Part shown: one piece after another, positions 9,584 through 38,166 of the stretch
Layout: the number at the start of each line of letters is the position of its first letter
Numbering within the stretch: the first letter of the stretch is position 1
Assembly: GCF_016862315.1 (NCBI RefSeq)
Contig: NZ_BOMS01000002.1
Span: forward strand, 1-51,307
DNA: 51,307 nt
Source of the DNA: Actinoplanes palleronii
GTDB taxonomy: Bacteria; Actinomycetota; Actinomycetes; Mycobacteriales; Micromonosporaceae
Direction: 5' to 3'
Made by a program: the position numbers and the translations under genes
Notes under the pieces: model-generated
Told to the model about the DNA's origin: nothing
Databases searched by the model: none
What the model saw: only the letters and a program-made list of their open reading frames with translations

Positions 9584-9615
9584 CCGGCCGCCCTGCTCTC
9601 TCGCAGGGCGGCCGG
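9584..9615. terminator. Strong hairpin after the helicase gene
   Basis: A perfect 13-bp stem (CCGGCCGCCCTGC, 9584-9596, with 9603-9615) and a 6-nt loop sit 22 bp after the stop of the helicase-nuclease gene, as expected for its terminator. Confidence 0.65.
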
Positions 9616-9637: not shown

Positions 9638-12600
9638 TCAGTGGCGGGTGGGGTGGTGCGCCGGGCGGCGGGCGGCGTCGTGCCGCCGCAACTGCGTCGG
9701 GTCGGGCAGGCCGTGTGCGGCCGAGAGGCCGTCCGGCTGCTGCAGCAGGTGTCCCTCGGCGACCAGGTCGGCCAGCAGGCCGGTCAGGCGGGCGTCGAGG
9801 TCGGTGGACCGCCGGGCCGACCAGCCGTAGAGCCGGGTGACCGCGGCCAGCAGGTCGTCGACCGGCAGCATCCCGCCGTCGATCACCAGGTTCTCGCAGG
9901 CGACGACGAGCTCGGCGTCGGAGACCTGGTCGGCCTTGCGGGCCACGCCGCCGGCCCGCTGCCGGACCACCGGGAAGGCCTGGTCGGGGTCGCCGACGAA
10001 GGTGCCGTCCCAGGCCACCCCGGCCTCCTCGATCGCGGCCTCGATCGCGGACCGGGCCGGGCGGGTGATCCGGGCCAGGCCCCACTCCTCCCGCATCCGT
10101 TGCAGGGCGACGCTGATGTGCACCGGCCCCTCGATCTCGGCCAGCCGCTGCACCGCGGCGATCAGCTCGGGCCGCAGGGCCGGGTCGGTGAGGACCGCTT
10201 CCGGCGGCAGCGGCGCCAGGTCCGCCTTCCGGTAGGGCTGGGCCCACTCGTCGGCGTGCGACGACCGCGGTTCCGCGGCCGTCACCGGCTCGTGATGCGT
10301 CCAGCCGGGCGGGGCGGCCATCGTCTCCTCGAACTCGGCGACCGCGGCCGCGATGTCCGGCTGCCCTTCCAGGGCCTGGTACCACGCCTGCCGGTGGAGA
10401 TCCTCGCCGGCGCGCAGCGTCTGCTCGGCCACCGTCGCCGCGGCGTCGGCCAGGTCCGGGTCGAGGTTGGCCGACTCGGCCAGCTCGGCGCGGACCTGTG
10501 AGATGGCCCCGAGCCGGTCGGCCGGTTCGGCGGTCTCGTGCAGCCCGGCCAGGAACTGCGCGGCGGCCGCGGCCAGCTCCTCGGTGCTGACGCCGAACCG
10601 GGCGGCGACCTCGGTGAGGTCCTCCCGGCTGGCGGCGGTCTGATCGGCGGGAGCGGCGGTGGGCCACTCGATCAGGGTGGGGGTGCGCTCCGGCTCGGCC
10701 GGCGCCTCGCGCTCCCCGTGACGGCCCGCCGATCCTTCCCGCTCCTCGTGGCGGCCGGCCGGTTCCTCCCGCTCCTCGTGGCGGCCGGTCGGTTCCTCCT
10801 GGGCGGCGGGTGCGTCGGAGCGCAGGGTGGAGGGCCATTGCAGGGACGTCTCCGGCTCGGGCCGGGTGGCGGACGGCCACGCGACCGACGGGACCCGCCG
10901 CCGGCCGGTCCCGGCCGGCTCCGCACGGGTGGCCGTGGGCCACTCGATCGGCGACGCGTGCCGGCCGACGGTCTCGGTGGGCTCGTCGCCGGCGGCCGAG
11001 GGCCACTCGATCGACGCGGCGTGCCGGCCGGCGGGCCGCTCGGCGGTCGCGGAGGGCCAGGTCACCGCGGAGACGCGCGGCTCGTCGGCGGCCTGGTTGA
11101 CGGTGGCCCAGGTGTCGGCGGCCGCGGGCTCGGTGCGGTTCGCCGTGGGCCAGGTGACGGTGGAGACCGTCGGCTGGTGTGCGGTGGGCTCGGGTTCCTG
11201 GTCGCGGGTCACGGCGGCGGGCTGCCGCTCGTCGGCGTTCCTCGGGGCGGCGGTGGGCCACACGAAGCGGTCCGGGTCCTCGGCACGGACCGGGGTGGAG
11301 GCGGGCCAGCCGGGGCTCTCACCCTGGTCGGTGCGGAGCTGGGCGACAGCGGTCTCCAGGTTCGCGCCCAGGTAGGCCTCGGCGGCCGCGAGCTCCTCCG
11401 CGCCGGCCTGGGCCGCGGCGAACTGCGCCGAGAGCCGGACCAGCCGGTCGTGCCCGGCCGGGACGGTGTCCTCCTCGAGGATCTCGGTGAGGACCGGTTC
11501 GGCGGGCGACGCCCACGGATCCTCGGCGGGAACGGCCGCAGCGCGGACGAGCGGCGGCTCGTCGTGATCCGCATCGGCCACCAGGTCGGCGTCGTGGATC
11601 TCGGTGGAGAACCCGCCGGCGACGGCCGGCGACAGGTCCGTGATCCGGGGACCGTCGGTGGCGTGGGCGGCGGCCAGGTCGGCCTCGGCGGACGCCTCGG
11701 CCTCGGCCAGCCCGACGTCGTCGGCGTCGGTCCAGGCGTGGAGGTGCGCGGGCTCGACGATCTCCGGGAGGTCGCCGGGCGGGGTCGCGGCGGGCGCCGG
11801 CGCGACTCCGGAGACCGCGGCGGCCAGCTCCTCGACGGAGATCGGCTCCCGCTCGACCCGCTCGGGCTCCGGCCCGCTCGCGCCCCGGGCCGGGGCGGAA
11901 CGGGCCCCGGACCCCTGCTCGGCCGAGCCCCGGGCGGGGGCGAAGGCGGCCGCGCTCATGTCGTACGTGAAAGCGGTGACGGTCTCGGCATCCCGATCGC
12001 CGTAACCGGCGGCGTAGCCCTCCGCGGCCTCCGCGACCGGGTACTCCGCGGCGCCCTCGGGCGCCGGCGACACCGGCGCGATCTCCTCGGCCGCATCGGC
12101 GGTGGCGACGGTCAGCTCCGGCGCCTCCTCGTCCGGCAGCGCCGCGAACGCGGCCTCGATCGCCACCCGCAGGCGGGTCTCCTCGCCGGCCCGGTCCAGG
12201 TACCAGGCGGTCCCCCAGACCCGGTGCAGCTTCCAGCCGAGCCCGTCGAGCAGCTGCTCGCGCAGCCGGTCCCGGTCCCGGGCGGTCGGCGCCGAGTCGT
12301 AGGACGTGCCGTCGCACTCGATGCCCAGCGCGTACGGGGCGTTGCGCCGCGACGAGCGGGGCACCGCCAGGTCGATCCGGAACGCGCCGGTGCCGACCCG
12401 GGAGTTCACCCGGTATCCCCAGCCGCGGATGACGTCGCGCACCGAGTCCTCGAACGGGGTCTGCGACTCCTCGGACTGCGGTTGCTCCTCCAGGCCGAGC
12501 GCCGGGATCCCCCGGGCGGCGTACTCCAGGTACTCGCCCAGGCGCTGCATGCTGTCGTCGCCGTCCGCCAGGTCACGGGCCCGGACCGCGGAGACCACCT

Positions 12601-15600
12601 CGATCCGCCGGCGGGCGCGGGTGATCGCCACGTTGAGCCGGCGCCAGCCGTCCGGGCCGCGCAGGCCGCCCAGCTCGCTGCCGATCGCGAAGATCACCAC
12701 GTCGCGCTCGTCGCCCTGGACGACGTCCAGGTCCTTGATGAAGAAGCCGCGCAGCCGGTCGTCCTCGGGCGGGACGACCATGTCCGCGACCGCGGTCTCG
12801 ATCTCGAAGGCGTCCTCCGGCGTGCACACCACCACGCCGAGGCTCAGGTCCGGCCGGGTCACCAGGTGGTGCGCGATCCGGGTGGCGACCAGATCGGCCA
12901 TCGACTGGTCACCGGTGGCCGGGTACAACTGCACGCCGCGGTCCGGGCCGGACGGCGCCCAGGCCGGGAACGTGTTGAGCCGCCCCTGGTAGAACGCGTG
13001 GTTGGCGAAGGCGATCAGCGACTCGTCGCGGCTGCGGTAGTGCGTGGTCAGGTCGATCGTGCGGAACGCCCCGCAGCTCAGGGCCAGCTCCAGGATCGAG
13101 CGCGGGTCGCCGCCGGGGATCGGTGCGGCGGTGAGTTGCCGGTCGTCGCCGCAGACCACCAGGGCGTTGCCCCGGTAGACGCAGGTGATCGCGTCCGGCA
13201 CCGGCACCCGGGAGGCCTCGTCGATGATCACGACGTCGAAGGCCAGGTTGATCGGGAGCAGCCGGCTCACGTCGGCCGGCGACATCACCAGGCACGGCTT
13301 GACCGCCATGGTGGCGTGGGTGGTCCGGGCCAGCAGCTCCCGGACCGGCAGGCGCCGGCCCTGCTGGGCGGCGGACGCCCGGAGCAGGGCGGCCTCGCCG
13401 GCCGCCGACTCGGCCGGCTGGAGCGCGTCGACGGCGTTCATCACCTCGGCCGCGGCGGCGCGCTGCAGCAGCGCGTCCCAGTGCCGGAACTCCTCGACCA
13501 GCCGGTCCCGGGCCACCGCGTCGAGCGGGGACAACCGGTCGTCGTCCCGGATGATCGTGTCGGCCCAGGCCTGGAAGAGGGCCCGGCCGAGCACCGGCAG
13601 GATCTGCTCGACGGCCAGGTCCTCGCGGGCGCAGAAGTCGACGACCGCGTCCAGGCCGTGCTCGGCGAGCACCGCGCGGGCCGACTGGTGGTCGAACCAC
13701 TCCTGCTGGCCGCGACTGTCCTCGAGGAGTTCGCGGATCAGGTCGCGGGCGGATTCCCGCTCGTCCAGGGCGGCGCCGAGACCGGGGTGCCGGCTCGGCG
13801 CGAAGGCCCGCAGGATCCAGTCCCGGGTGGCCTGCCACTCGGTGACCCGGGCCGGCAGGCTGTCGCTGGGCCGGCTCCGGCCGAGCGCCGCGGCCTGCTC
13901 GGGGGTGAACGCGATGTCCCCGCCGTTGCGCACCCGCCGGGCCTCGGAGGTCCAGGCCATCGCGGCGGCGAGCGCCTCCACGTCGGTCTGGTGGCCGCGG
14001 TAGGCGGCGCCGAGCACGGTGGCGTACTCCTTGGCGTTGGCCGTCAGCGCCGTGGCCGCCTCCGACGCGCTCTCCCGCAGCAGGCCGATCGAGGCCGCCT
14101 CGGCGAGGGTGAAGTCCCGGCTGGCCGCCGCGCTGTACGCCTGGACCAGCTCGGCCACCGCGGTGAACGGCTCGACGTGGGCGCGCAGCCAGGTGACCGC
14201 GTCGTGGATCGGGCCGGCGCCGAGCTGGGGCCGGGGCGCGGGCTCGGGGGCCGGACGCAGCGCGGCCGTCCACCTGGCGAACTCCTTGGTGGCCTCGCCG
14301 ACGATCCGGATGATCGCGCTGTTCGGGGTCGGTGCGCAGATCCGCTCGATGATCGAGGGCAGCGCCTCCGGCGGGGTGACCTTCAGGGTCTCCTCGGCGG
14401 TGGCCAGCGCCCGCTCCAGCGCCTCGAAGTCGGTGTCCTGCCGCTGCCAGTGCCGGCCGAGGATGCCGGCCTGCTCGGCCTCGGCCTCGTCCAGCTCCTG
14501 CAGGGCGCGCTTCCAGGCCGCGGCCGCGTTCAGGTTGGCGACCGCCTCGGAGCGTTTGACGTCCGGCCGGGCGATCTCCGCGGCCGCCTTCTTGTCCCGC
14601 CGGTAGTGCGCCCCGAGCTTGCGGATGCCCTTGTGCTCGTGGGCGAACCGCTCGGCCAGCTCGTCCACCGGCTCGGCCAAGGCCTCCTCGCTGAAGTGCT
14701 CGCGGGCCCGGGTCTCGGCGGCCTTCACCACGTTGACCACGCGCCGCAGGTTCCGCGCCGCGGCGTGCGCGGCGGTCGTGCCCAGGTTGTCGAACCAGGC
14801 CGGTTCCGGCTTGTCCGGCCGGGCCAGCAGGTCGACGATGGCGGCCAGCCGGGCCAGGTCGGTGAACGCGACCACGTTGGGCAGCCCGAGCCGGGCGGTG
14901 ACCCGGTCCAGGCTGTGCTGGTGCTGCTCGATCCGGTCGGCCTCGTCGGCGAAACGCCGGGCCAGACCCCGGGCCTGTGCGGCGGTGAGCGGCAGCAGCT
15001 CGACCGCGGGCGGCTTGAGCTGGGCCAGGCTGGGGATCATCGGCAGCTTGCCGGGGGCCGGCAGCGTGCTCCAGGTGACCCCGGTCCGGGTGCGGACCGC
15101 CTCCTCGGCCTGGTTCAGCGTCTTCAGGTGGCGCAGCAGCCCTTCGGCGGCCCGGGCCACCGGCTCCAGACTGGGCATGGTGAGCCACTCGTCGGCGGCC
15201 TCGGCCGGCCGCCGGGCGGCGTGCCCGACCAGCGTGGTCAGGGTGATCGCCTCAGCGATCGTGCCGATCAGGAACGCCTCGGCCAGCGGGTCCCGCTCGA
15301 TCGCCTCGGCCAGGTGGTCCAGGGCGGCCTGCGCCTGGTGCAGCCGGGCGTCCAGGCGGTTGTGGTCGATCACGTCGCGCCAGAGGAAGTCCTCGCCCTC
15401 CCGGGCCGGGCGCCAGGCCCGGCCGAGGCGTTCGGCGGCGTCCCGGACCCGCTGCAACGACTGGGTGGTGAGCGGGATCAGCAGCTCCGCCGGGGCCGGC
15501 GCCTGCGGCACGTCGGTCATCTGCGCGCACATGCCGAGCACGTCGTGCAGGCGGTGGCCGAGCGGTTCGCGGACCTCGTTCATCGCCTCGGCGTACGCGT

Positions 15601-16804
15601 TGAGCCGCTGCCGGTGGTCGCGCAGCGCCGCGCGTTCGTCGGTGGACAGGTCCGGCGGCGGCAGCGGGATGAAGTCCAGCGCCGCGGCCAGGGCGGCCGC
15701 CACGTGGTCCCGGCCGGTCCGGCCGCTGTGCAGCTCGAGCAGGTAGTCGTCGAGCCCGAGCGGGGTGAGCCGGTCCCGGACGGTGTCCAGGGCGGCGGCC
15801 TTCTCGGCGACGAACAGCACCCGCCGGCCGGCGTGCATCAGCCCGGCGATCATGTTGGCGATCGTCTGCGACTTGCCGGTGCCGGGCGCGCCCCGCATCA
15901 CGAAGGTGCGGCCGTGCAGCGCGGCGCTGACACAGGCCCGCTGCGCGGCGTCGGCGTCGAGCACCAGCGGCACGTCGTCCGGGGTGGCCACCTCGTCGAT
16001 CCGGCGACCGGCGACCACCTCGAACTTGAACGCGTCCGGCTGCGCCTCGGGGGTGCTGGCCAGGGCCCGGATCACCGGGTGGGCGAGGATCTGCCGCTCG
16101 TGGTCGAGCAGGTCGGTGTACATCACCTCGCGGTGCACGTTGAACCGGGTGAGCAGCACCGCCTCGTCGGAGTGCCAGTCCGGGTGGTCGCCGAGAGCGG
16201 CGTCCAGCCGGGCCCAGAACACCGTGACGTCCAGCGCCGCCAGGCTGTCCACCGCGGGCAGCTCGATGTGGTGCCGGCGCAGGCAGATGTCCAGCGCCGG
16301 GTTCACGATCGGATCCTCGGCGCGGGCCCGCAGCCGGGGATAGTCCTGCGGGTCCGGGGTCACCAGGTCGACCGGGATCAGCAGGATCGGGCTGACGTGC
16401 TCGTTCCCGCCGTCCCGCCAGCTGACCGTGCCCAGGCCCAGATAGAGCGTGGCTACGCCCTGTTCCAGCAGGTCACGACGTGCGGAGCGCCGGAGCTCCC
16501 GCAGCGTGGTGTCCATCTCCGCGTCGGCCATCGCGGTCTGGAAGACGTGCGCGGCCCGTGGCCGCGGACCTTCCGCCTGTTCCTCGACCCCCAGGAAGCC
16601 GCACTCGCGACCCTGCTGGAGCGCCTCGACGATACTGCGCGGCGAGGGGCTGACGATCTCCACCACACCAGGCGCCGTAGTCCGCACGTCGATCAGCGGA
16701 TTCGCGCCGGTCAGATCCAGCAGCCCATCCCGCCACTGTTCGAGTGTCGCCCGTACCCGGGCATCAGGCCGCCCGGTCAACCCGTCCGATTGATCCCACC
16801 GCAT
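9638..16804 (-). CDS. DUF4011 / SF1 helicase / Vsr-like nuclease / DUF3320 giant protein
   Basis: A 2388-residue cytoplasmic protein. The N-terminal DUF4011-type region (about 15-270) starts RATLEQWRDGLLDLTGANPLI. Walker A is GAPGTGKSQ (about 305-313). A long helical insertion follows, then Walker B VVIIDEASRVP (about 1190), GDDRQL, and C-terminal helicase motifs VVQGDERDVVIFAIG and NVAITRARRR (about 1360-1400). A Vsr/DUF559-like endonuclease (about 1470-1540) has RIDLAV, GIECDG and ARDRDRLREQLL. A repetitive linker spans about 1560-2080, and a DUF3320-like helical domain (about 2200-2270) is followed by a C-terminal domain. The likely role is ATP-driven DNA unwinding coupled to cleavage, perhaps in phage defence (inference). 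The ATG start has GGAATGGA 4 nt upstream. It follows the HIRAN gene by 111 bp. Confidence 0.85.
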   Translation of the reverse strand: MRWDQSDGLTGRPDARVRATLEQWRDGLLDLTGANPLIDVRTTAPGVVEIVSPSPRSIVEALQQGRECGFLGVEEQAEGPRPRAAHVFQTAMADAEMDTTLRELRRSARRDLLEQGVATLYLGLGTVSWRDGGNEHVSPILLIPVDLVTPDPQDYPRLRARAEDPIVNPALDICLRRHHIELPAVDSLAALDVTVFWARLDAALGDHPDWHSDEAVLLTRFNVHREVMYTDLLDHERQILAHPVIRALASTPEAQPDAFKFEVVAGRRIDEVATPDDVPLVLDADAAQRACVSAALHGRTFVMRGAPGTGKSQTIANMIAGLMHAGRRVLFVAEKAAALDTVRDRLTPLGLDDYLLELHSGRTGRDHVAAALAAALDFIPLPPPDLSTDERAALRDHRQRLNAYAEAMNEVREPLGHRLHDVLGMCAQMTDVPQAPAPAELLIPLTTQSLQRVRDAAERLGRAWRPAREGEDFLWRDVIDHNRLDARLHQAQAALDHLAEAIERDPLAEAFLIGTIAEAITLTTLVGHAARRPAEAADEWLTMPSLEPVARAAEGLLRHLKTLNQAEEAVRTRTGVTWSTLPAPGKLPMIPSLAQLKPPAVELLPLTAAQARGLARRFADEADRIEQHQHSLDRVTARLGLPNVVAFTDLARLAAIVDLLARPDKPEPAWFDNLGTTAAHAAARNLRRVVNVVKAAETRAREHFSEEALAEPVDELAERFAHEHKGIRKLGAHYRRDKKAAAEIARPDVKRSEAVANLNAAAAWKRALQELDEAEAEQAGILGRHWQRQDTDFEALERALATAEETLKVTPPEALPSIIERICAPTPNSAIIRIVGEATKEFARWTAALRPAPEPAPRPQLGAGPIHDAVTWLRAHVEPFTAVAELVQAYSAAASRDFTLAEAASIGLLRESASEAATALTANAKEYATVLGAAYRGHQTDVEALAAAMAWTSEARRVRNGGDIAFTPEQAAALGRSRPSDSLPARVTEWQATRDWILRAFAPSRHPGLGAALDERESARDLIRELLEDSRGQQEWFDHQSARAVLAEHGLDAVVDFCAREDLAVEQILPVLGRALFQAWADTIIRDDDRLSPLDAVARDRLVEEFRHWDALLQRAAAAEVMNAVDALQPAESAAGEAALLRASAAQQGRRLPVRELLARTTHATMAVKPCLVMSPADVSRLLPINLAFDVVIIDEASRVPVPDAITCVYRGNALVVCGDDRQLTAAPIPGGDPRSILELALSCGAFRTIDLTTHYRSRDESLIAFANHAFYQGRLNTFPAWAPSGPDRGVQLYPATGDQSMADLVATRIAHHLVTRPDLSLGVVVCTPEDAFEIETAVADMVVPPEDDRLRGFFIKDLDVVQGDERDVVIFAIGSELGGLRGPDGWRRLNVAITRARRRIEVVSAVRARDLADGDDSMQRLGEYLEYAARGIPALGLEEQPQSEESQTPFEDSVRDVIRGWGYRVNSRVGTGAFRIDLAVPRSSRRNAPYALGIECDGTSYDSAPTARDRDRLREQLLDGLGWKLHRVWGTAWYLDRAGEETRLRVAIEAAFAALPDEEAPELTVATADAAEEIAPVSPAPEGAAEYPVAEAAEGYAAGYGDRDAETVTAFTYDMSAAAFAPARGSAEQGSGARSAPARGASGPEPERVEREPISVEELAAAVSGVAPAPAATPPGDLPEIVEPAHLHAWTDADDVGLAEAEASAEADLAAAHATDGPRITDLSPAVAGGFSTEIHDADLVADADHDEPPLVRAAAVPAEDPWASPAEPVLTEILEEDTVPAGHDRLVRLSAQFAAAQAGAEELAAAEAYLGANLETAVAQLRTDQGESPGWPASTPVRAEDPDRFVWPTAAPRNADERQPAAVTRDQEPEPTAHQPTVSTVTWPTANRTEPAAADTWATVNQAADEPRVSAVTWPSATAERPAGRHAASIEWPSAAGDEPTETVGRHASPIEWPTATRAEPAGTGRRRVPSVAWPSATRPEPETSLQWPSTLRSDAPAAQEEPTGRHEEREEPAGRHEEREGSAGRHGEREAPAEPERTPTLIEWPTAAPADQTAASREDLTEVAARFGVSTEELAAAAAQFLAGLHETAEPADRLGAISQVRAELAESANLDPDLADAAATVAEQTLRAGEDLHRQAWYQALEGQPDIAAAVAEFEETMAAPPGWTHHEPVTAAEPRSSHADEWAQPYRKADLAPLPPEAVLTDPALRPELIAAVQRLAEIEGPVHISVALQRMREEWGLARITRPARSAIEAAIEEAGVAWDGTFVGDPDQAFPVVRQRAGGVARKADQVSDAELVVACENLVIDGGMLPVDDLLAAVTRLYGWSARRSTDLDARLTGLLADLVAEGHLLQQPDGLSAAHGLPDPTQLRRHDAARRPAHHPTRH
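10660..11290 (-). repeat. Coding repeats: WP[ST]A motif and GRHEERE units
   Basis: Within the helicase protein (about residues 1838-2048) a motif with core hydrophobic-x-WP[ST] occurs about nine times (for example TVTWPTA, SIEWPSA, SVAWPSA, LIEWPTA). Near 10710-10800 a roughly 30-bp unit encoding GRHEEREEPA repeats three times. The tract is Pro/Glu/Ala-rich and probably disordered. Confidence 0.75.
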
Positions 16805-16915
16805 TTTTCCATTCCAGCAAGGCGACGGGCCGCATGGTGGCGTTTTTTCGGGTTAATCCGACGTTTCGCTCGGATCGGACCAACTTGGCGACACACCCGC
16901 CCCACCCGCCCCAGA

Positions 16916-18748
16916 TCAGTCCCAGGTCGGGACCCACCACTGCCAGCCGGAGGGTGCGAGCGGCCACGCGGCCTCCGGTCGCCAGCCCTCCGGCGGGTAC
17001 CACCCGTCCGGCGGGGTCGGCCAGCCCGGCGGCACCTGGAACTTGACGCCGGTGGGCGCGACCGGGATCGGCGGGTGCCGGTTCGGGTCGGGCGCGGGCG
17101 ACACCGGCGCGGAGCCGGTGACCGTGGCGGCGTGCTGCTTCATCACGGCGCTGAGCGCCGGGATCACCGTGGTCTCGGCGATCTCGCCGGAGCCGCCGAA
17201 CAGGCCGGCCGGCTGCCCGCCCCCGGCCGGGCTCACCGGCGCGTTGCCGCCGAACTGCCCACCGGCCGGGCTCACCGGGCGGTTGCCGTCGAACAGCTGC
17301 CCACCGGCCGGGCTGACCGGGCGGTTGCCGTCGAACGACGGCCCACCGGAGGGGCTGGTCGGCGCGCCACCGAACGACGGCCCACCGGCCGGGCTGACCG
17401 GCACGCTGCCGTCGAACAGGCCGGCCGGCTGCCCGCCGCTCGGGCCGGCCAGTTGCCCGCTGCTCGGGCCGGACGACAGCCCACTGCCCGGGCCGACCTG
17501 GCGGCTGCTGTCGAACAGGCCGGTGGGCTGCCCACTCGGAGCGCTCCCACCGAACTGCCCCGGCGATCCGCCGAGCTGGCCGGACGATCCACCGGCCGGG
17601 CTGGCCGGCATGGTGCCGCCGGGCATCGGCGAGGTCGGCACGCCCGGGATCGGGTGGGCCGGGACGCCGGGGACGACCTGCTCCTCGGGCGCCGGGGTCT
17701 TGCCGGCGATCGTCGGCACCGGGCCGCTGACCGAGGCCGCCCAGCTCGGCACCGGGCCGCTGGCCTGCACCCAGCTCGGCACCAGCTCGCTGCGGTCCAT
17801 CCAGGTGGGCTGCGCGTCGCTGGGCGCGGACGCCCAGGTCGGCACGGCGTCGCTGGTGGCCATCCAGCTCGGCACCGCGGAGGTGCCGGCGGCCGGCAGG
17901 TCCGGGCCGGTCGACGTGGCCAGGACCGGGGTGGTGGTGGCCGGCGGCGAGACCGGTGCGACCCGCCCGCTGGTGGCGAGCCGGGCGGCCGGGCCGGCCA
18001 CGCTCTCCGGCAGGTCCTGGACCCGGGCGACGTAGAGCAGCACCTCGGTCTTGTTGACGTTGCTCTTGACGATGGCGCGGGCCGCGACGACCAGGCCCCT
18101 CTCGGACTGGTACCGCAGCACCGGGGTCAGCTCGACGCTCATCTTCGGGCTCAGGTCACCGACCCGGATGTCACCGAGGCGCACCTCGACCAGGTGGTCG
18201 GCCATCTCGTGCAGGGTCACGTACGCCCAGCACTCGCCCTCCGGCCGCTGGAACGGGGCCAGCGCGTCGGCGTGCCGCTCGTACCCGTTGACCTGCAGGG
18301 CGGAGCCGGTCGGCAGCAGCCGGTGCTCCTGGCGGGGCGGGTCGTTGGCCGGCACGATCATGTGCGGCTCGGCCAGGTCGAGGCGGATGGTGCCGACGAA
18401 GGCGGGCGGGCGGCCGTCGTACTCGCCCCACTCCCGGCCGTGGATCTGGGCGTTCACCTCGGGGACCAGGTTGCGCTTGGTCAGCGCGGTGAGGACGTGC
18501 ACGTACCGGGCGGCCTCGGGGCGCGGCAGGTGGCCGAGCAGCGCGGTGCCGGACCAGACACCGACGGCGTTGCGATCGTGGCGATTGCTGCGGTCGGGTA
18601 TCAGCTGGACCGGTACGGTCAGGTCGGTTCCCTGTGGGTTGAAGTCGCCGTTGAAAAGCGCTCGTATCGCCTTGGCGTAGTGAGTCTCGCCGACGACCTC
18701 GGCACTTGCCCAGCCCGCTTGTCCCCAGAGTTGGAACCGATTTGCCAC
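16916..18748 (-). CDS. HIRAN-domain protein with PVSPAGG repeats
   Basis: A 610-residue protein. Residues 15-90 look like a HIRAN domain (EVVGETHYAKAIRALF, then NRHDRNAVGVWSGTALLGHL); in Rad5/HLTF this domain binds DNA ends. Residues 90-260 form a second folded region. Residues about 370-560 are Gly/Ser/Pro repeats built on FDGNRPVSPAGG. The C-terminus is a Trp/Pro/Gly motif (PPGWPTPPDGWYPPEGW) seen in many actinobacterial proteins. It lies directly upstream of the helicase-nuclease gene on the same strand (111-bp gap), so the two probably act together. Start GTG 18748 has no Shine-Dalgarno but is 6 nt after TAGCGT, suggesting a leaderless transcript. Confidence 0.75.
   Translation of the reverse strand: MANRFQLWGQAGWASAEVVGETHYAKAIRALFNGDFNPQGTDLTVPVQLIPDRSNRHDRNAVGVWSGTALLGHLPRPEAARYVHVLTALTKRNLVPEVNAQIHGREWGEYDGRPPAFVGTIRLDLAEPHMIVPANDPPRQEHRLLPTGSALQVNGYERHADALAPFQRPEGECWAYVTLHEMADHLVEVRLGDIRVGDLSPKMSVELTPVLRYQSERGLVVAARAIVKSNVNKTEVLLYVARVQDLPESVAGPAARLATSGRVAPVSPPATTTPVLATSTGPDLPAAGTSAVPSWMATSDAVPTWASAPSDAQPTWMDRSELVPSWVQASGPVPSWAASVSGPVPTIAGKTPAPEEQVVPGVPAHPIPGVPTSPMPGGTMPASPAGGSSGQLGGSPGQFGGSAPSGQPTGLFDSSRQVGPGSGLSSGPSSGQLAGPSGGQPAGLFDGSVPVSPAGGPSFGGAPTSPSGGPSFDGNRPVSPAGGQLFDGNRPVSPAGGQFGGNAPVSPAGGGQPAGLFGGSGEIAETTVIPALSAVMKQHAATVTGSAPVSPAPDPNRHPPIPVAPTGVKFQVPPGWPTPPDGWYPPEGWRPEAAWPLAPSGWQWWVPTWD
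17165..17600 (-). repeat. Coding tandem repeats (PVSPAGG) in the HIRAN protein
   Basis: A 42-bp unit encoding FDGNRPVSPAGGQ-like segments is repeated with variation in the middle of this tract; flanking copies read FGGAPTSPSGG and LFDGSVPVSPAGG. The rest is G/S/P/Q-rich (SGPSSGQLAG). Confidence 0.75.
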
Positions 18749-18832
18749 ACGCGAACGCTAGTGTCTGCTTTCCGTCAGCAGCGTCGTCCATACGGATGAC
18801 TACGCTCAGCCGGACGGACCGTATCTAAAAGA

Positions 18833-20791
18833 TCAACTCTCCGCTGCCAGCGCGCGGTCCAGGTCAGCGAGTTGCCCGCCGATCTGGCCGAGGGTGAGCA
18901 GTCCGCTACCGGAACCGGCCCATTCGGCCGCGGCGGGGGCCAGCGCGGTGCGTGCCCGCAGCATCGCCGCACGGTCACCGGCCGCCAGCGCCGCCGTCGC
19001 CACCAGGCTCCAGAGCGCCTCGGCGAGCAGATCCGGCGGCGGGTCCGGGAGGTCCCGCAACTCCCGGTGGTCCCAGAGCGGCAGGACCCATGTCCGGTAC
19101 GGCCCGAAGTCGTCGCCCCGCTCCCCCAGCGGCAGCCCCCGCCGCACCCGCACCCCGAGCAGCGCCAGCGGCACGAGCCCCGCGCTGAGCCCGGGCATCC
19201 CGGCGCCGTCCAGCCGCGGCGCCAGCTCCCGGTAGGCCCGCTCGACGTCGGCCGGCGGAGCGCCGGTCATGTCCAGCCGCAGCGCCGCGTACCCCTCGGT
19301 GAACACGCCGACCAGCGGCAACTCGTAGCGCGCGCCGAGCGCACCGGCCGCCGCCGCGTGCCGGTCCGCGCCGGCCAGGTCGCCGAGCGCGGCCCGCCCC
19401 TGAACCCGGATCAGGTGGCCGAGCACCTCGGCGGTGACCAGGCCGTGCCGGGCGGCCAGCCCGATCAGCTCCTCGCCGATCGCGTCCCGGTCCGGCGCCA
19501 GCCCGGTCCGGTGACAGCTCTGCAGGTAGACCGCGTTCAGCGCGAACGCCAGCAGGCCGGGGTCGTCCAGCCCGCGGGCGATCCGCTCGGCCTCCCGGGC
19601 GCACTCCCGCGGCCACGGGTCGGTGGTGCCGCGCGACTCGCACGCGACGGTGGCCAGCAGCCGGGCCCGGGCCGCGTGGTGGCCGGCCGGCAGCGCGGCG
19701 AGGGTCCGGGCGGCGGCCGCCACGATCCCGGCCGCCTGCTCCGGGTCGTCGGCACGGGTCCAGACGGCCGGCACGTCGTAGGCGCCGATCACCCGGGCGG
19801 CCAGTTCCGGGTCGCCGAGCTGTTCGGCCGCCGCGACGGCCGCGCTGCGCTGTTCCCGGGCCGCGGACAGGCCACCGGCGCCGGTCACCGCCAGGTTCCG
19901 CAGCAGTCCGACCGCCGACTCCAGCCGGACCCGGGTGCCCGCGACCCGGTCATACGCCTCCGCCGCCCGGGCCAGCACGCCGGCGGCCAGGTCGGGGCCG
20001 GGCGGCACCTCCGCTGCCGGGCCGGGGCCGCGCGCCGGGCCCGTGACCAGGTCGAGGGCCGGGGACTGGCGCAGGACGTCCTGTTCCAGGCGGCGCAGGG
20101 CCGGGCCCGGGTCGACGCCGAGCTGGCCGACCAGCAGGGCGCGGGCCCGGCGCAGCACGGCGAGCGCGTCGCCCTGCCGCCCGGTCCGGTAGAGCGCCAG
20201 GGCCAGCAGCCGCCAGCCCTCCTCCCGCCACGGGTGCTCGGTGACGTAGGCGTCCAGATCGGGGACCGCCTCGGCGGCACGGCCCCGCTCGAGGCGGGCG
20301 GTGGCCTGGCGCTCCAGGGCGCGCAGGCGCAGCTCGGCGAGGCGGGCGCGGTCGGCGGCGGCCCACGGGGCGTCCGGGAAGTCCGCGTAGGCCGGGCCGC
20401 GCCACCAGCCCAGCGCCTCGTCCAGCCGGGCGAGCGGTGGGACGGCAGGGGCGTGGACGATCTCCTCGAAACGCCAGGCGTCGACGGTGCCGGGGGCGGG
20501 GCGGAGGGCGTACCCGGAAGCCTCGGTGACCAGCAGCGTGCCCGGCGCCCGGCGGATCCGGTCCGGTTCCACCGCCCGCCGCAGGGCAGCGACGAACGTC
20601 CGCACCGCGGCGATCGCGCCGCCCGGCGGCGCCACCCAGAGATCGGCGACCAGAACGCCGACCGGGACCACCCGGCCGCGGGCGACCAGCAGGCGGGCCA
20701 GGACCGCGCGGTGCATCGGGCCCTTGAGGGCGATCGGCGTGCCATCGGCCCCGGCCGCGGCCACCGGCCCGAGCACCGCGAAGTCGGTCAC
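18833..20791 (-). CDS. SARP/BTAD-type transcriptional regulator
   Basis: A 652-residue regulator. The N-terminus is an OmpR-like winged helix (about 1-95: FAVLGPVAA, LKGPMHRAVLARLLV, AIAAVRTFVAALRRAVEP). A bacterial transcriptional activation domain of TPR type follows (about 100-245: LALALYRTGRQGDALAVLRRARALLVGQLGVDPGPALRRLEQDVL). The C-terminal 400 residues are alanine-rich helices resembling TPRs; no NB-ARC P-loop is present, unlike AfsR. Start GTG 20791 has AGGAGGG 6 nt upstream. SARPs often activate secondary-metabolite clusters, but no biosynthetic cluster is visible here. Target unknown. Confidence 0.8.
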   Translation of the reverse strand: MTDFAVLGPVAAAGADGTPIALKGPMHRAVLARLLVARGRVVPVGVLVADLWVAPPGGAIAAVRTFVAALRRAVEPDRIRRAPGTLLVTEASGYALRPAPGTVDAWRFEEIVHAPAVPPLARLDEALGWWRGPAYADFPDAPWAAADRARLAELRLRALERQATARLERGRAAEAVPDLDAYVTEHPWREEGWRLLALALYRTGRQGDALAVLRRARALLVGQLGVDPGPALRRLEQDVLRQSPALDLVTGPARGPGPAAEVPPGPDLAAGVLARAAEAYDRVAGTRVRLESAVGLLRNLAVTGAGGLSAAREQRSAAVAAAEQLGDPELAARVIGAYDVPAVWTRADDPEQAAGIVAAAARTLAALPAGHHAARARLLATVACESRGTTDPWPRECAREAERIARGLDDPGLLAFALNAVYLQSCHRTGLAPDRDAIGEELIGLAARHGLVTAEVLGHLIRVQGRAALGDLAGADRHAAAAGALGARYELPLVGVFTEGYAALRLDMTGAPPADVERAYRELAPRLDGAGMPGLSAGLVPLALLGVRVRRGLPLGERGDDFGPYRTWVLPLWDHRELRDLPDPPPDLLAEALWSLVATAALAAGDRAAMLRARTALAPAAAEWAGSGSGLLTLGQIGGQLADLDRALAAES

Positions 20792-20802
20792 CCGCGACCC
20801 TC

Positions 20803-21804
20803 CTACTCGCTGATCTTGATGACCATCTTGCCGGTGTTCTCGCCCCGCATCAGCCCGAGGAACGCCTCCGGCGCGTTGGCCAGCCCCTCCACCACCGTCT
20901 CCGGCGCCGAGATCTGCCCGGCCCGCAGCCAGCCACCGACCTCCTCGACGAACTCCGGCATCCGCTTGCCGTGGTTGCCGACGATGAAGCCGCGCAGGGT
21001 GAGCTCCTTGCCGATGGCGAGGGCCAGGTTGCGCGGCGCGGCCGGCGCGGACGTCTCGTTGTACTGCGAGATCGCGCCGCAGAGCGCGACCCGGCCGAAC
21101 TTGTTCAGCGAGCCGATCGCGGCTTCCAGGTGCTCGCCACCGACGTTGTCGAAGTACACGTCGATGCCGTCCGGGGCCGCCGCGCGCAGCTGCTCGCGGA
21201 CCGGGGCGTCCTTGTAGTTGAACGCGGCGTCGAAGCCGAGGTCGTCGACCAGGTGGCCGACCTTCCCGGCGGAACCGGCGCTGCCGATCACGCGCTTCGC
21301 GCCGCGCAGCTTGGCGATCTGCCCGACCACGCTGCCGACGGCGCCGGCCGCGCCGGAGACGAAGACCGTGTCGCCCTCGCGGAACTGGGCGATGTCCAGC
21401 AGGCCGACGTACGCGGTGAGCCCGGTCATCCCGAGCAGCCCGAGGTACGCGGAGAGCGTGGGCGCGGCCGCCGGGTCGATCACCCGTACCTTGGCGGCGT
21501 CGGTCACCGCGAAGTCACGCCAGCCGAGCCCGTGCACCACTGTCGCGCCGACCGGCACGCCCGGCGAGTTCGACGCGACGACCTGGCCGATCGCCCCGCC
21601 GTCGAGGGCCGCGCCGAGCGGGAACGGCGGGACGTACGACTTCACGTCGTTCATCCGCCCCCGCATGTACGGGTCGACCGACATGAACTGGTTGCGGATC
21701 AGCACCTGGCCCTCGCCCGGCTCCGGGGTGGGCAGCTCGACCAGCTCGAAGTTGTCGGCGGTCGGCCACCCGCTGGGCCGGCTGGCGAGACGGATCTCCT
21801 GCAT
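20803..21804 (-). CDS. NADP-dependent oxidoreductase of the MDR/curcumin reductase type
   Basis: A 333-residue zinc-independent medium-chain reductase acting on enones or alkenals. It begins MQEIRLASRPSGWPT, has SVDPYMRGRM (substrate loop), LGLLGMTGLTAYVGLLDI, the nucleotide-binding FVSGAAGAVGSVVGQIAKLRGA, and IDVYFDNVGG, all characteristic of this subfamily. Start ATG 21804 has GGAGG 5 nt upstream; GTG 21816 is less likely. It is divergent from a TetR gene with two palindromic operators between, so it is probably induced by an electrophilic or aromatic compound. Confidence 0.85.
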   Translation of the reverse strand: MQEIRLASRPSGWPTADNFELVELPTPEPGEGQVLIRNQFMSVDPYMRGRMNDVKSYVPPFPLGAALDGGAIGQVVASNSPGVPVGATVVHGLGWRDFAVTDAAKVRVIDPAAAPTLSAYLGLLGMTGLTAYVGLLDIAQFREGDTVFVSGAAGAVGSVVGQIAKLRGAKRVIGSAGSAGKVGHLVDDLGFDAAFNYKDAPVREQLRAAAPDGIDVYFDNVGGEHLEAAIGSLNKFGRVALCGAISQYNETSAPAAPRNLALAIGKELTLRGFIVGNHGKRMPEFVEEVGGWLRAGQISAPETVVEGLANAPEAFLGLMRGENTGKMVIKISE

Positions 21805-21832
21805 CAGTTCCTCCACACGTCGTCGTTACTCC

Positions 21833-32989: not shown

Positions 32990-34288
32990 TCACCGCTTCG
33001 TATAGATGACCCCCACCTTGTCGAGTTCGGTGCCGGCCCGGCCGTGGAACCCGGCGATCTGCCAGCCGGCCGGCGCGGTACGCGTCACGCAGTCCGATGT
33101 GGTGCTCCCGCCGGCCAGGGTGCGGCCCAGGCTGGTGGTGAACCGGGCGTAGAAGATCCGGGTCCGCGAGTTGTAGACACCCCGGCACAGGGAGAGGCCG
33201 GTCACGTACTCGCCGCTGCCGAGGGTCAGCGCCGTGGCCGTGCCGCCGGTCCCGCCGTGGCTGAGCGCGCCCAGCGACACCGCGTCGACCCGGGAACCGG
33301 CCCGCAGCCCCACGGTGGTGGCCGCCGCGGCGCGCTCGACGTCGTTGAAGTAGTCGCCGTGCGGGCCGCCGAACTGCTCGCTGAACTGGTACGCCGGGTT
33401 CACCGTCCAGGAGAAGCCGGCGCTGATCGGGTCGTGGTCGGAGAGCATCAGCCCGTCCGCGGTGAGGAACGACGCGTGCTCGTTGTGGTACGAGGTCGCG
33501 GTCAGCGTGACCAGCCGGCTGCCCCGGTACAGGATCTTGTCGACCACCTCGCAGGTGTCCTCGGGGCAGAGCAGCGGGTCGGCGCCCTTGGCCGGGGCCA
33601 CCCCGCCGCGTTCCAGCTGCACCCACGCGTCGGTCAGGCCGTTGGCGCCGGCGAACTCCGCGATGGTGTCGCCGGTCCGGGTGTACCGGGTGTTCGTGTC
33701 GCCCATCACCACGACCGCGTTGCCGGCCGAGTGGCCGGCGATGAACGTGGTGAGCTGGCTCAGGTTGTCGGCCCGGGAGGCCAGGTCACCGGCGTTCGTG
33801 CCGGCGTTGGTGTGCAGGTTGTAGAAGTCGACGTAGACGCCCTCGGCCAGCCGGGTACGACTGAACGTGAAGCCCTTGGGGGTCAGGCAGTCACCGGAGT
33901 CGTACTGGCAGGAGTTCCATCCGGCGCGCTCGAAGTCGTCGGTGTCGTACGCGTAGGAGGACAGGCTGTTCAGCCCGGAGCCGATGCCGGCGCCGCCGCT
34001 GGTCGGGGTGCGGTAGGCGTGCGTGTCGGTGGCGTACAGATAGGCGTGGTAGTTGAAGTCCTCCTGCACGTGGATCACGTCGTACCCGGAGATCCGGGAG
34101 CCGATCGCGGTCGTCGCGGACTGCCGATCCGTTTCCGCACTGGACAGGATGTCGGGTAGTCCGGCAATGTTGTAGGAAAGAACCTTCAGAGTTCCGCCGG
34201 TGGGTGCGGCGGACGCGGGGGCGGTGGGGACGGCGATCAGGGTGGCGGTCAGCGCCACGATCGCGACGGGGATGCGTGTGGTGAGCAC
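32990..34288 (-). CDS. Secreted sphingomyelinase-like phosphodiesterase with jacalin-like domain
   Basis: A 432-residue secreted protein. The signal peptide (VAIVALTATLIAVPTAPASA) ends at about residue 28. The endonuclease/exonuclease/phosphatase domain (about 33-300) has LKVLSYNIAGLP, HVQEDFNYH, VVVMGDTNTRY and MLSDHDPI (catalytic His), as in bacterial neutral sphingomyelinases. A C-terminal lectin-like domain of jacalin type (about 305-432: FGGPHGDYFND, GSRVDAVSL, LGSGEYVTGLSL, FHGRAGTELDKVGVIY) probably binds glycans. GTG 34288 follows TAGCGT by 7 nt with no ribosome binding site, so the transcript may be leaderless; the frame extends upstream but loses the signal arrangement. Confidence 0.8.
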   Translation of the reverse strand: MLTTRIPVAIVALTATLIAVPTAPASAAPTGGTLKVLSYNIAGLPDILSSAETDRQSATTAIGSRISGYDVIHVQEDFNYHAYLYATDTHAYRTPTSGGAGIGSGLNSLSSYAYDTDDFERAGWNSCQYDSGDCLTPKGFTFSRTRLAEGVYVDFYNLHTNAGTNAGDLASRADNLSQLTTFIAGHSAGNAVVVMGDTNTRYTRTGDTIAEFAGANGLTDAWVQLERGGVAPAKGADPLLCPEDTCEVVDKILYRGSRLVTLTATSYHNEHASFLTADGLMLSDHDPISAGFSWTVNPAYQFSEQFGGPHGDYFNDVERAAAATTVGLRAGSRVDAVSLGALSHGGTGGTATALTLGSGEYVTGLSLCRGVYNSRTRIFYARFTTSLGRTLAGGSTTSDCVTRTAPAGWQIAGFHGRAGTELDKVGVIYTKR

Positions 34289-34448
34289 GATCCGGACGCT
34301 AGGGCCCGAACCGCCCGATAGGAAGACCCCAGCATCGGTACGTTCATCGATGTTCACGCTCACATCCGCGGTTGTTACCCGCGAGTTGGAAACCCGCACG
34401 AAAGCTGGGCCGCGATCTTGCCCCGCTACCGCCTCGTGGAGTTTCCCC

Positions 34449-36293
34449 ATGCCTCCGATCTCCGTGAGCCGCCGGACCGTCCTGCGCGCCTCCGCCGCCG
34501 GCCTTCTCGCCGGCCCCGTACTTCGCGGGTCCGCCGCCTCCGCCGCCGTCGTCCCCGCGGCTTTTGTGGACAGCTACCAGACCAACCTCACGGCGAACCT
34601 GACCGTCGAGACCAACGCCGCCGTGCGGATCCTCTCCGGCGTCCAGCGGGTCTGGGCCACCGGCGCCACCTGGAACACCGGCACCGTCCTGGACCGCGCG
34701 TTCCTGCGCGCCAACATCCGGTACGTCGAGCAGGTCACCACGCACCGCACCGACGCCGAGGCGGCCACGGCGTTCGTCGTCGACCGCCAGCACCAGAGCT
34801 ACTCGACGATCGCCGGGCTCGGCCCGCTGGCCCCGCTCTACCGGGCCGGCGCACTCGCCGTCACCGGCATCACCACGGCGCCCGCCGGCACGCCGGCGAC
34901 CACGGTCAGCGACGCCGTACCGGCCGGCGCCCCGGCCGGCTCGGCGCTCGGCGCGGGCTCCACCACCTCCGCGCTCGGCAAGGTGGCCACCCTGGTCAAC
35001 ACGCTGCGCGGCAGCTTCTCGTCGGGCAACCCGGCGAAGTTCGCGTTCCAGTACCCGCGCCCGTGGCGGCTCACCGGGGACAGCCGGGTCGCCGACACCG
35101 GCGCGGTGGACGCGTTCGGCTTCCCGGTCTACGCGTCCGGCGTGGTCGTGGCGCCGGCGCTGCTGCGTCAGCGCGGGACCAGCCCGGCCGAGGACGGCGG
35201 GTACGTCAGCGGCCACACCAACGCGCTCTTCCTGGCCGCGCTCGCCTACGCGTACGCCGTGCCGGAGCGCTTCCAGGAGCTGGTGGCCACCGCGTACGAC
35301 CTGGCGCACACCCGGATCGTGGCCGGCATGCACTCCCCCGCCGACGTGATCGGCGGCCGGATCCTGGCCACCGCGCTGGCCGCCGCGATCCTGCGCGACC
35401 CGGCGAACGCCACGGTCAAGGCGGACGCGCGGGCGCAGGCCCTCGCCTACTTCCAGGCCCAGGTCGGCCCGGACGTCCTCGGCTACGCACGCTCCACCGA
35501 GGCCGAGCGCAAGATCAACGTCAAGAACGTCAGGCACAAGCACACGTACGACCTGCCGGCGCACGGCAAGCGCGTCCCGGTCACCGTGCCCACCGGCGCC
35601 GAGGTGCTGCTCGAGACCCGGCTGCCGTACCTGGACGCCGAGCAGCGCCGCGAGGTGCTCCGGACCACCGGCCTGACCTCCGGCCACCCGATCCTGGACG
35701 GCCCGGAGCAGTGGGGCCGGCTGAACCTGTTCGCGGCCGCCGACGGCTACGGCGCGTTCGACGCCGGCGTCGCGGTGACCCTGGACGCCGCGCTCGGCGG
35801 CTTCCACGCCGCCGACACCTGGCGCAACGACATCGGCGGCCGGGGCGGGCTGGTCAAGCTCGGCTCGGGCGCGCTCACGCTCGCCGGCGACAACGACTTC
35901 CGGGGCGGCGTCACCCTGGCCCAGGGCACGCTGACCGCGGACTCGCGGACCGCGCTGGGCGGCGGCGACGTGACCGTCACCGGCGGCACGCTGCGCCTGG
36001 CGGACGACGGCGTGCGGGTGCGCGGCGGGTTCCGGCAGAGCGGCGGCACCCTCGCGGTGACCCTCGAGCCGCACGGCAAGACCGCGCTGACCGTCGAGGA
36101 CGACGCCGTGCTCGGCGCGCACGTCACGCTGTCGATCACCGTCGGCCGGGGCTCGTTCCGCGGCCCGGTACCGGTGATCAAGGCTCGGCGCCTGCGCGGG
36201 ACATTCGCCTCGGTCGTCGTGACCACGCCCGGGTTCCGGGCCGAACCGGTCACGCACGGCGACACGGTCGCGGTGCGGATCCGGGCCGTCTGA
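34449..36293 (+). CDS. Tat-exported PAP2 phosphatase with beta-strand passenger-like repeats
   Basis: A 614-residue exported enzyme. It starts with a twin-arginine signal (SRRTVLRASAAGLLAGP). The PAP2/class A acid phosphatase region has FQYPRPW (motif 1 RP), DGGYVSGHTNAL (motif 2, PSGH variant with V for P, near residue 250) and AHTRIVAGMHSPADVIGG (motif 3, near 290-305). The C-terminus (about 470-614) has LVKLGSGALTLAGDNDFRGGVTLAQGTL, resembling autotransporter-associated beta-strand repeats, probably a surface or carbohydrate-binding beta-helix. ATG 34449 has GGAG 7 nt upstream. Divergent from the sphingomyelinase-like gene; both are likely extracellular phosphate scavengers (inference). 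Confidence 0.8.
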   Translation: MPPISVSRRTVLRASAAGLLAGPVLRGSAASAAVVPAAFVDSYQTNLTANLTVETNAAVRILSGVQRVWATGATWNTGTVLDRAFLRANIRYVEQVTTHRTDAEAATAFVVDRQHQSYSTIAGLGPLAPLYRAGALAVTGITTAPAGTPATTVSDAVPAGAPAGSALGAGSTTSALGKVATLVNTLRGSFSSGNPAKFAFQYPRPWRLTGDSRVADTGAVDAFGFPVYASGVVVAPALLRQRGTSPAEDGGYVSGHTNALFLAALAYAYAVPERFQELVATAYDLAHTRIVAGMHSPADVIGGRILATALAAAILRDPANATVKADARAQALAYFQAQVGPDVLGYARSTEAERKINVKNVRHKHTYDLPAHGKRVPVTVPTGAEVLLETRLPYLDAEQRREVLRTTGLTSGHPILDGPEQWGRLNLFAAADGYGAFDAGVAVTLDAALGGFHAADTWRNDIGGRGGLVKLGSGALTLAGDNDFRGGVTLAQGTLTADSRTALGGGDVTVTGGTLRLADDGVRVRGGFRQSGGTLAVTLEPHGKTALTVEDDAVLGAHVTLSITVGRGSFRGPVPVIKARRLRGTFASVVVTTPGFRAEPVTHGDTVAVRIRAV

Positions 36294-37816: not shown

Positions 37817-38166
37817 CGGACCGCTTCCCCGGTACGAGTACGGAGCACCCGCCGCAGGCCACGAGCCGCGTCCCGGGCCGGTCCCGCGCGACACCGCCGC
37901 AGGCCCGGACCGCAGCGCGCCTCACAGTCTCGGCTGGTGCTCAGGGGTGCCTCAAGGTCCTTGAGGCACCCCTGAGCACCAGCCGAGTTCCAGAACCGGG
38001 CGGGAAATCGCGACCGGCGCGCATTTCGATCAGATAGCTGCATATCTGAAATACGCCAGAATGCCACCTGGCAGATTGCCATCGCGCAATTATCCGGCCA
38101 AATGAATGAATGTACCCTCACTGGCTCCGGTTGGGCACAATAGAAACAGATGCCCCGGGGGTGCCC
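37817..38166. other. Gap with a perfect palindrome and an A+T-richer right part
   Basis: No gene is seen in these 350 bp. The left half carries a degenerate arm of the large repeat seen at 2361-2424 (about 37832-37880) and the palindrome 37929-37987. The right half (about 38020-38130) is clearly richer in A+T than its surroundings and probably contains the promoter of the DUF6082 gene (CACAAT at about 38137). Confidence 0.6.
37929..37987. repeat. Palindromic repeat family, perfect copy
   Basis: Perfect 29-bp arms around a single central base; the left arm starts CTCGGCTGGTGCTCAGGGGT. It lies after the esterase gene, where it could act as a terminator. Related copies are at 2556, 43527, 43597 and 51165. 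Confidence 0.9.

Follow-up and report, generated by a model that had tools for sequence, protein, structure and literature searches.

A HIRAN protein and a DUF4011 helicase-nuclease encoded side by side in Actinoplanes: a candidate DNA-surveillance pair

We found that a gene for a free-standing HIRAN protein and a gene for a giant DUF4011 helicase-nuclease lie in tandem in Actinoplanes palleronii, and that this arrangement is kept in close relatives. The pair may constitute one chromosomally fixed DNA-surveillance unit, composed of a HIRAN sensor and a helicase-nuclease; we put the probability of this reading at about 0.4. The window, meaning the whole stretch of DNA analysed, was 51,307 nucleotides long. 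In it, the HIRAN protein gene (16916..18748, minus strand; GTG start) encodes 610 aa and the helicase-nuclease gene (9638..16804, minus strand; ATG start) encodes 2388 aa, with the HIRAN gene first and 111 bp between the two. The initial annotation had proposed this tandem, and both open reading frames were confirmed. The strong hairpin that it had placed at the end of the unit was also real: located 3' of the helicase stop codon (9584..9615, no strand assigned), it has perfect 13-bp arms (9584–9596/9603–9615) and scored −39.5 kcal/mol (z = −3.1). It contains no T-run and does not appear in the terminator scan list.

Besides the window, 38 HIRAN-bearing loci were fetched, 15 of them close (74–90% HIRAN identity) and 23 more distant. 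Results showed that the helicase core immediately followed the HIRAN gene in all 15 close loci (16 with the window), whereas the 23 distant loci had no such helicase within the flanking DNA examined (up to 10 kb). Among the loci examined, the pair was limited to Actinoplanes. All 15 close loci shared the same upstream flanking gene (ADH), and genes from the other side of the window were found downstream in 13 of them; the remaining two loci cover less than 0.7 kb on that side. In the HIRAN tree, the paired proteins fell on one side of a single branch (16 versus 21 rows, support 100/100), which is consistent with one origin. Because the close loci share both the pair and its upstream neighbor, and none of the distant loci has the helicase in the DNA examined, the pair appears to be an Actinoplanes feature that arose once and was inherited vertically. 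The HIRAN part had no match on plasmids, and a scan of viral contigs that was restricted to close relatives found none either; distant relatives of the helicase occurred in 388 plasmid records. Given one conserved chromosomal neighborhood and no plasmid or close viral match for the HIRAN part, we rejected a mobile defence island gene as the identity of the locus. The domains named in the initial annotation were right, and the adjacency held in the close relatives; the setting, however, is not a defence island.

The N-terminal domains of the 610-aa protein are predicted to adopt the HIRAN fold. The Pfam HIRAN profile (PF08797) scored 20.6 bits over residues 45–86 (24.1 bits in six-frame translation) against a cut-off of 24.7, and PF08797 was precomputed on the paired-type relatives P0019, P0032 and P0036. 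The call was below the cut-off by sequence, yet it was backed by the predicted fold, for which the best 16 Foldseek matches of residues 1–255 were all HLTF HIRAN chains or lp_0118. The predicted fold thus supported the HIRAN identity first assigned to the N-terminal domain, and no other fold displaced it. Domain 1 (residues 3–125; 18374..18742, minus strand) was supported by AF2 (pLDDT 85.8), Foldseek, VIA structure comparison, in which HIRAN gave the top matches, and profile alignment with HLTF. In that alignment, its pocket motif N55-x-H57-D58 corresponded to N91/Y93/D94 of HLTF, in a numbering that agrees with N90, N91 and Y93 in PMC4666394. The pocket residues are present as in HLTF, and 38 of the 39 paired-type proteins have an NxHDxxAV-type motif. 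In HLTF, Y72 and Y93 flank the DNA cavity, and mutation of HIRAN weakened fork binding (PMC4666394); by analogy, domain 1 may bind DNA ends as HLTF does. Prokaryotic HIRAN domains were termed uncharacterised in 2024 (PMC11090510).

A second, degenerate HIRAN-like domain, overlooked in the initial annotation, spans residues 142–240 (18029..18325, minus strand) and has lost the pocket motif. It was supported by AF2 (pLDDT 90.2), by VIA, whose top eight rows were lp_0118, HLTF HIRAN and Rad5, and by hhalign. The latter scored 24.8 against domain 1 versus at most 16.8 in 20 shuffles, with a probability of 17%. Foldseek alone gave no match for domain 2 at E ≤ 0.001.

Downstream of these folds, residues 256–555 (17084..17983, minus strand) form a probably disordered linker with P(S/T)W repeats, which varies in length and sequence across pairs (202–789 aa, mean identity 45%, pN/pS 0.86). 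Paired HIRAN proteins were longer than others (median 566 versus 344 aa). One linker motif, IAETTVIPALSAV (residues 523–535; 17144..17182, minus strand), is conserved; its pattern ET(T/S)V(I/L)PAL was shared by 38 of the 39 HIRAN proteins of the paired type and by none of the 106 others. The protein ends in a Trp/Pro module, GWxxPPxGWxPPxGWxP...GWQWW (about residues 568–610; 16919..17047, minus strand). The initial annotation had regarded a stand-alone HIRAN partner with a Trp/Pro/Gly C-terminus as an unusual addition; the module is real but widespread in actinobacteria, where it also occurs on unrelated proteins.

The domain architecture ascribed to the 2388-aa protein was recovered in full above the Pfam cut-offs: DUF4011 (residues 28–172; 16289..16723, minus strand; 90.8 bits, cut-off 22.2), the SF1 helicase profiles AAA_11/AAA_12, the Vsr-like MTES_1575 PD-(D/E)XK nuclease (residues 1451–1549; 12158..12454, minus strand; 101.5 bits) and DUF3320 in a winged-helix region (residues 2207–2248; 10061..10186, minus strand; 26.7 bits, cut-off 25), a domain that overlaps a wHTH (PMC3710099). 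The Walker A sequence GAPGTGKSQT (residues 305–314; 15863..15892, minus strand) retains GTGK in 34 of 34 paired-type helicases, and the nuclease positions D1478, E1496 and D1498 are likewise kept in 34 of 34, so that helicase and PD-(D/E)XK motifs are both intact. D1478 together with E1496 was found in 12 of 37 and 36 of 49 unpaired relatives, by length class, even when Q or D was allowed at E1496. Paired-type helicases formed one group in the helicase tree (support 0.986) and were longer than the others among those listed (1924–2551 versus 1404–1838 aa). The linker of the 2388-aa protein carries the conserved motif AYLG (residues 1810–1813; 11366..11377, minus strand). The pattern AY(L/R)(A/G) occurred in 33 of 34 paired-type helicases, the 34th having AYLD, and in 0 of 86 relatives, 49 of which are short (1527–1661 aa), have hardly any linker and end at or soon after residue 1540, the point beyond which the motif was sought. 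Only the window, L002, L003 and L006 showed strong WPSA-type repeats in the helicase linker.

Alignment of the 16 loci revealed conserved elements before each gene. Upstream of the HIRAN gene, GATACGGTCCGTCCGG (18810..18825, minus strand) lies 62–77 nt 5' of the start codon, and 14 of the 15 other loci carry its pattern exactly, at an identical distance. A near-invariant block, GACGGAAAGCAGACACTA (18759..18776, minus strand), stands right before the HIRAN start codon and is likely the core promoter. The helicase gene has its own element, TCGGATTAACCCG (16849..16861, minus strand), 57 nt 5' of the ATG, which recurs unchanged in 14 of the 15 other loci. Because the gap between the genes varied from 81 to 1030 bp and each gene has a separate conserved upstream element, we concluded that the pair is not a tight operon.

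In the proposed mechanism, the tandem-HIRAN protein would grip free DNA ends, and a short conserved motif in its linker, itself probably disordered, would serve to deliver them to the DUF4011 helicase-nuclease. The HIRAN protein may thereby recruit or load the helicase-nuclease at the ends. The helicase-nuclease, as predicted from its domains, would then unwind the delivered DNA and presumably degrade it after hand-over. The presumed targets would be phage, plasmid or badly damaged DNA, and an anti-phage effect of the pair is conceivable. The two linker motifs, or alternatively the Trp-rich repeats, are candidates for mediating contact between the proteins; the motifs are exclusive to the paired clade in both linkers despite linker hypervariability. 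They may, however, have been inherited without any contact, because all paired proteins are close relatives. A bolder version, which we considered unlikely, is that of a core-genome, two-component DNA-end immune unit, in which short linear motifs join the tandem-HIRAN sensor to the helicase-nuclease while the hypervariable, Trp-repeat, disordered linkers evolve almost freely around these fixed contacts. If true, such near-free evolution would let the unit evade phage inhibitors or gather at DNA ends in multivalent clusters.

The fixed chromosomal position would also suit a housekeeping role of the pair in Actinoplanes, in DNA repair or fork restart rather than in defence: HIRAN would bind the ends of stalled forks, as it does in HLTF, and the helicase-nuclease would process these ends. 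We regarded this as possible though rather unlikely. Synteny of the core locus across all 15 close loci and the HIRAN part's lack of plasmid or close viral-contig matches fit such a role, as does the role of HLTF's HIRAN in post-replication repair (PMC4666394). Yet elsewhere the family of this helicase has a mobile, defence-like character, as seen from the PDC-S37 profile and the plasmid-borne distant relatives, and a pair unseen outside Actinoplanes among the loci examined would be odd for basic repair. A core position is, moreover, compatible with defence: in P. aeruginosa, a DUF4011 gene was present in every isolate examined and flanks a defence hotspot, although it was used there as a core marker and not shown to be a defence gene (PMC10250203).

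The conserved surroundings, the separate upstream elements, the gap of up to 1030 bp and the HIRAN genes elsewhere without this helicase would be expected also of mere neighbors, a HIRAN protein and a DUF4011 helicase-nuclease that serve separate purposes with no physical partnership and stay together through regional synteny. The restriction of both linker motifs to the paired clade and the greater length of both paired proteins argue against this, and we thought it distinctly unlikely. The HIRAN-side motif could also have another meaning, since ETTVIPAL is near invariant within an otherwise variable linker, and its TT in an acidic/hydrophobic setting resembles the ETT phospho-motif that GarA carries. 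It would then be phosphorylated by a PknB-type Ser/Thr kinase or serve for FHA docking, and the HIRAN protein would be a phospho-regulated DNA-end binder whose tie to the helicase is regulatory. This seemed very unlikely: none of the 27 window ORFs had a kinase or FHA domain by Pfam, and the literature passages retrieved yielded nothing on such a motif.

The pair matters because catalogued anti-phage proteins or candidates include relatives of the helicase-nuclease, and here a free-standing HIRAN protein has remained with such an enzyme across a genus, while both proteins carry candidate contact motifs. The DUF4011 nuclease has been retained in the core chromosome with its active site intact, while many unpaired paralogues lost theirs. 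How such nucleases find DNA would be directly testable through the two short motifs.

Comparison with known systems places the pair near several of them. The helicase matched the PADLOC PDC-S37 profile with 880 bits in four stretches (best 913–1572; no cut-off is printed for this profile), the NCBIfam model Hhe (NF042953) with 544 bits against a curated cut-off of 2000, and the anti-phage protein ProA (NF058533) with 833 bits against 1500. The helicase thus falls short of both curated cut-offs, and the earlier proposal of a single-gene anti-phage candidate rests on similarity under those cut-offs. By profile match all three share a related helicase-nuclease core, and the present helicase differs in its long linker, fixed core locus and separate HIRAN gene. 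MTES_1575 of Microbacterium likewise combines an SF1 helicase, a Vsr REase and a wHTH overlapping DUF3320, but has extra HEPN and transglutaminase parts, and the portion of PMC3710099 available to us mentions no HIRAN partner. HLTF and Rad5 share the HIRAN fold, with the aligned pocket residues of HLTF; in contrast, the 610-aa protein stands alone, with no fused motor, and has HIRAN-like folds in tandem, of which the second lacks the pocket motif. In HipN and HipL, a bacterial HIRAN domain adjoins or is fused to an effector, as here, and the authors propose that it senses phage DNA ends, but that effector is a HipA-type kinase (PMC8262856). An analogy in logic is Hachiman (HamAB), in which a helicase and a nuclease are set off by DNA ends, with HamB helicase as the sensor and HamA nuclease as a separate protein (PMC12278908). 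Here helicase and nuclease form one chain, and end sensing would have shifted from the helicase to a separate HIRAN protein.

The pair lies in an 11.17 Mb Actinoplanes palleronii genome with both genes on the minus strand, the HIRAN protein gene (18748–16916; 610 codons, GTG start) being followed after 111 bp by the helicase-nuclease gene (16804–9638; 2388 codons, ATG start). For both proteins the nearest named relatives were from Actinoplanes. The helicase scored above the Pfam cut-offs for DUF4011 (residues 28–172), SF1 helicase in split matches (from residue 285, and 1354–1405), the MTES_1575 restriction-like nuclease (1451–1549) and DUF3320 (2207–2248). The HIRAN protein ends in a Trp/Pro module that matched no Pfam family at E ≤ 1; in other Actinobacteria this module is also present ahead of DUF4041-T5orf172 (GIY-YIG) domains (loci L039, L045, L061 and L073). 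Elsewhere, the window encodes a protein in which an endonuclease/exonuclease/phosphatase domain precedes a jacalin-like lectin domain (32990–34450), and a DUF6082 protein (38110–38877).

We scanned one genome per species, which yielded 141 relatives, and kept 78 loci. The HIRAN N-terminus was present in 38 of these. A helicase core lay directly downstream on the same strand in all 15 HIRAN loci with 74–90% identity (L002–L013, L030, L037, L038), and was absent from the other 23 (37–56% identity; L014–L029, L031–L036, L069) in DNA examined up to 10 kb. A HIRAN tree of 37 rows, from which the fragments L036 and L069 were excluded, placed the 16 paired proteins including the window's on one side of a single branch (support 100/100). 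Four species (A. liguriensis, A. lutulentus, A. couchii and A. rectilineatus) carried both paired and unpaired HIRAN genes. The direction from helicase to HIRAN was tested indirectly: 15 of the 34 paired-type helicase clusters agreed in the length of their longest contig with a listed paired-type HIRAN cluster, and six further clusters came from species represented in the set of 15 paired loci. The A. liguriensis HIRAN gene (L006:10001–12630) runs out of frame ahead of the C-terminal module, so that it is either damaged or misread in the draft assembly.

The surroundings of the pair were also shared. An alcohol-dehydrogenase-like protein gene (window 20803–21816) was upstream in 15/15 paired loci, and in 13/15 the downstream side held one or more of the genes that flank the helicase in the window; the remaining two, L008 and L030, have less than 0.7 kb of sequence past the helicase. 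In the window a BTAD/SARP-type regulator gene (18833–20791) separates the dehydrogenase and HIRAN genes; we did not find it in any of the 15 related loci. A search of 72,556 plasmids gave no match to the HIRAN part, and viral contigs yielded no close relative of it. The helicase family appeared in one phage record and in 388 plasmid records, every one of which fell below 60% identity and short of 80% coverage of the query. We concluded that the pair is a fixed chromosomal locus, and that distant cousins of its helicase are mobile.

A strongly conserved stretch lies on the upstream side of the HIRAN start codon, with a near-invariant block adjoining the GTG. The element GATACGG(A/T)(A/C)CGT(A/C)(C/T)GG (18810–18825, 62–77 nt upstream of the start) was exact in 14 of the 15 other loci as well as in the window (L001). 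A second element, TCGGATTAACCCG (16849–16861, 57 nt before the helicase ATG), was likewise exact in 14/15 other loci and the window; it is nearly palindromic (CGGATTAACCCG). Both keep a fixed distance from their respective start codons. Because the conserved elements are separate and the intergenic distance ranges from 81 to 1030 bp across loci, the two genes appear to be served by separate promoter regions.

Both proteins contain long linkers of variable length (202–789 aa in the HIRAN protein, 167–787 aa in the helicase). Across the 16 pairs, in uncorrected counts from GC-rich DNA that include the broken frame of L006, the HIRAN linker had a mean identity of 45% and pN/pS of 0.86 (81% and 0.36 for the part before it), and the helicase linker 33% and 0.95 (77% and 0.43). 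P(S/T/A)W repeats occurred in 16/16 HIRAN linkers in 1 to 20 copies; in the helicase, frequent WP(S/T/A/G) repeats were restricted to the window, L002, L003 and L006. Amid this variable sequence each linker held one short fixed stretch. In the HIRAN protein, ET(T/S)V(I/L)PAL, which sits inside IAETTVIPALxAV, was present in 38/39 paired-type proteins (37/39 by a stricter pattern) and 0/106 others. Among the listed best 120 of 4437 helicase relatives, AY(L/R)(A/G) was found in 33/34 paired-type helicases and 0/86 others. The helicase comparison is the weaker of the two: the motif was looked for beyond residue 1540, and 49 of those 86 proteins are short and hardly extend that far, if at all. The 34th reads AYLD, and by alignment columns A-Y was present in all 34. 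The two motifs are candidates for contact sites between the proteins.

The paired-type helicases (1924–2551 aa) were the first 34 of those best 120 of 4437, and formed a single group (support 0.986), whose sister group in a midpoint-rooted tree consisted of 32 shorter proteins. Within the same 120, and accepting Q or D in place of E at E1496, the nuclease residues D1478 and E1496 were both kept in 34/34 paired-type helicases, 12/37 other long helicases and 36/49 short ones. That the catalytic residues are intact in the paired clade and lost elsewhere suggests that the nuclease is put to use there. Many unpaired DUF4011 paralogues among P0087–P0172, mostly from Actinoplanes, lack catalytic residues of the nuclease, the replacements being G, E or A at D1478 or R or L at E1496. 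Helicase motifs were largely conserved in every group of listed relatives, and the paralogues with lost nuclease residues are possibly pseudo-nuclease helicases.

Among PADLOC profiles, the window helicase matched PDC-S37 (880 bits) and Hhe (346 bits). It scored well below the NCBIfam cut-offs for ProA (833 against 1500 bits) and Hhe (544 against 2000 bits). By sequence, therefore, it is a relative of the defence proteins PDC-S37, Hhe and ProA that falls outside Hhe and ProA by those families' own test.

Anatomy, pairing and conservation were observed; we propose that the pair is a DNA-end surveillance unit, with binding, contact and outcome as inferred steps. A free end would be captured by HIRAN domain 1, the helicase-nuclease would be recruited through the linker motif of the HIRAN protein, and nuclease cutting of the unwound DNA would follow. 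The main rival, that the pair serves repair, draws its strength from the core chromosomal location. Such a location is still compatible with defence: passages of PMC10250203 describe a DUF4011 gene that all the P. aeruginosa isolates of that study carry and that is used there as a marker beside a defence hotspot, so core location does not by itself exclude a defensive role.

HIRAN and DUF4011 were together in no paper found in a search limited to open-licence literature. The component parts are of known kinds; the tandem HIRAN arrangement, the core-genome pairing and the linker motifs of the paired clade make up a new variation on them. The general idea of bacterial HIRAN domains beside DNA-processing enzymes is likely older. 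For DNA-end surveillance by the pair, Hachiman offers a precedent, as the relevant part of PMC12278908 describes a DNA-end-sensing helicase that can switch on a nuclease in an anti-phage response. A sensor role like that envisaged here for HIRAN was proposed for bacterial HIRAN domains by the authors of the HipN/HipL work, in the portion of PMC8262856 that treats them.
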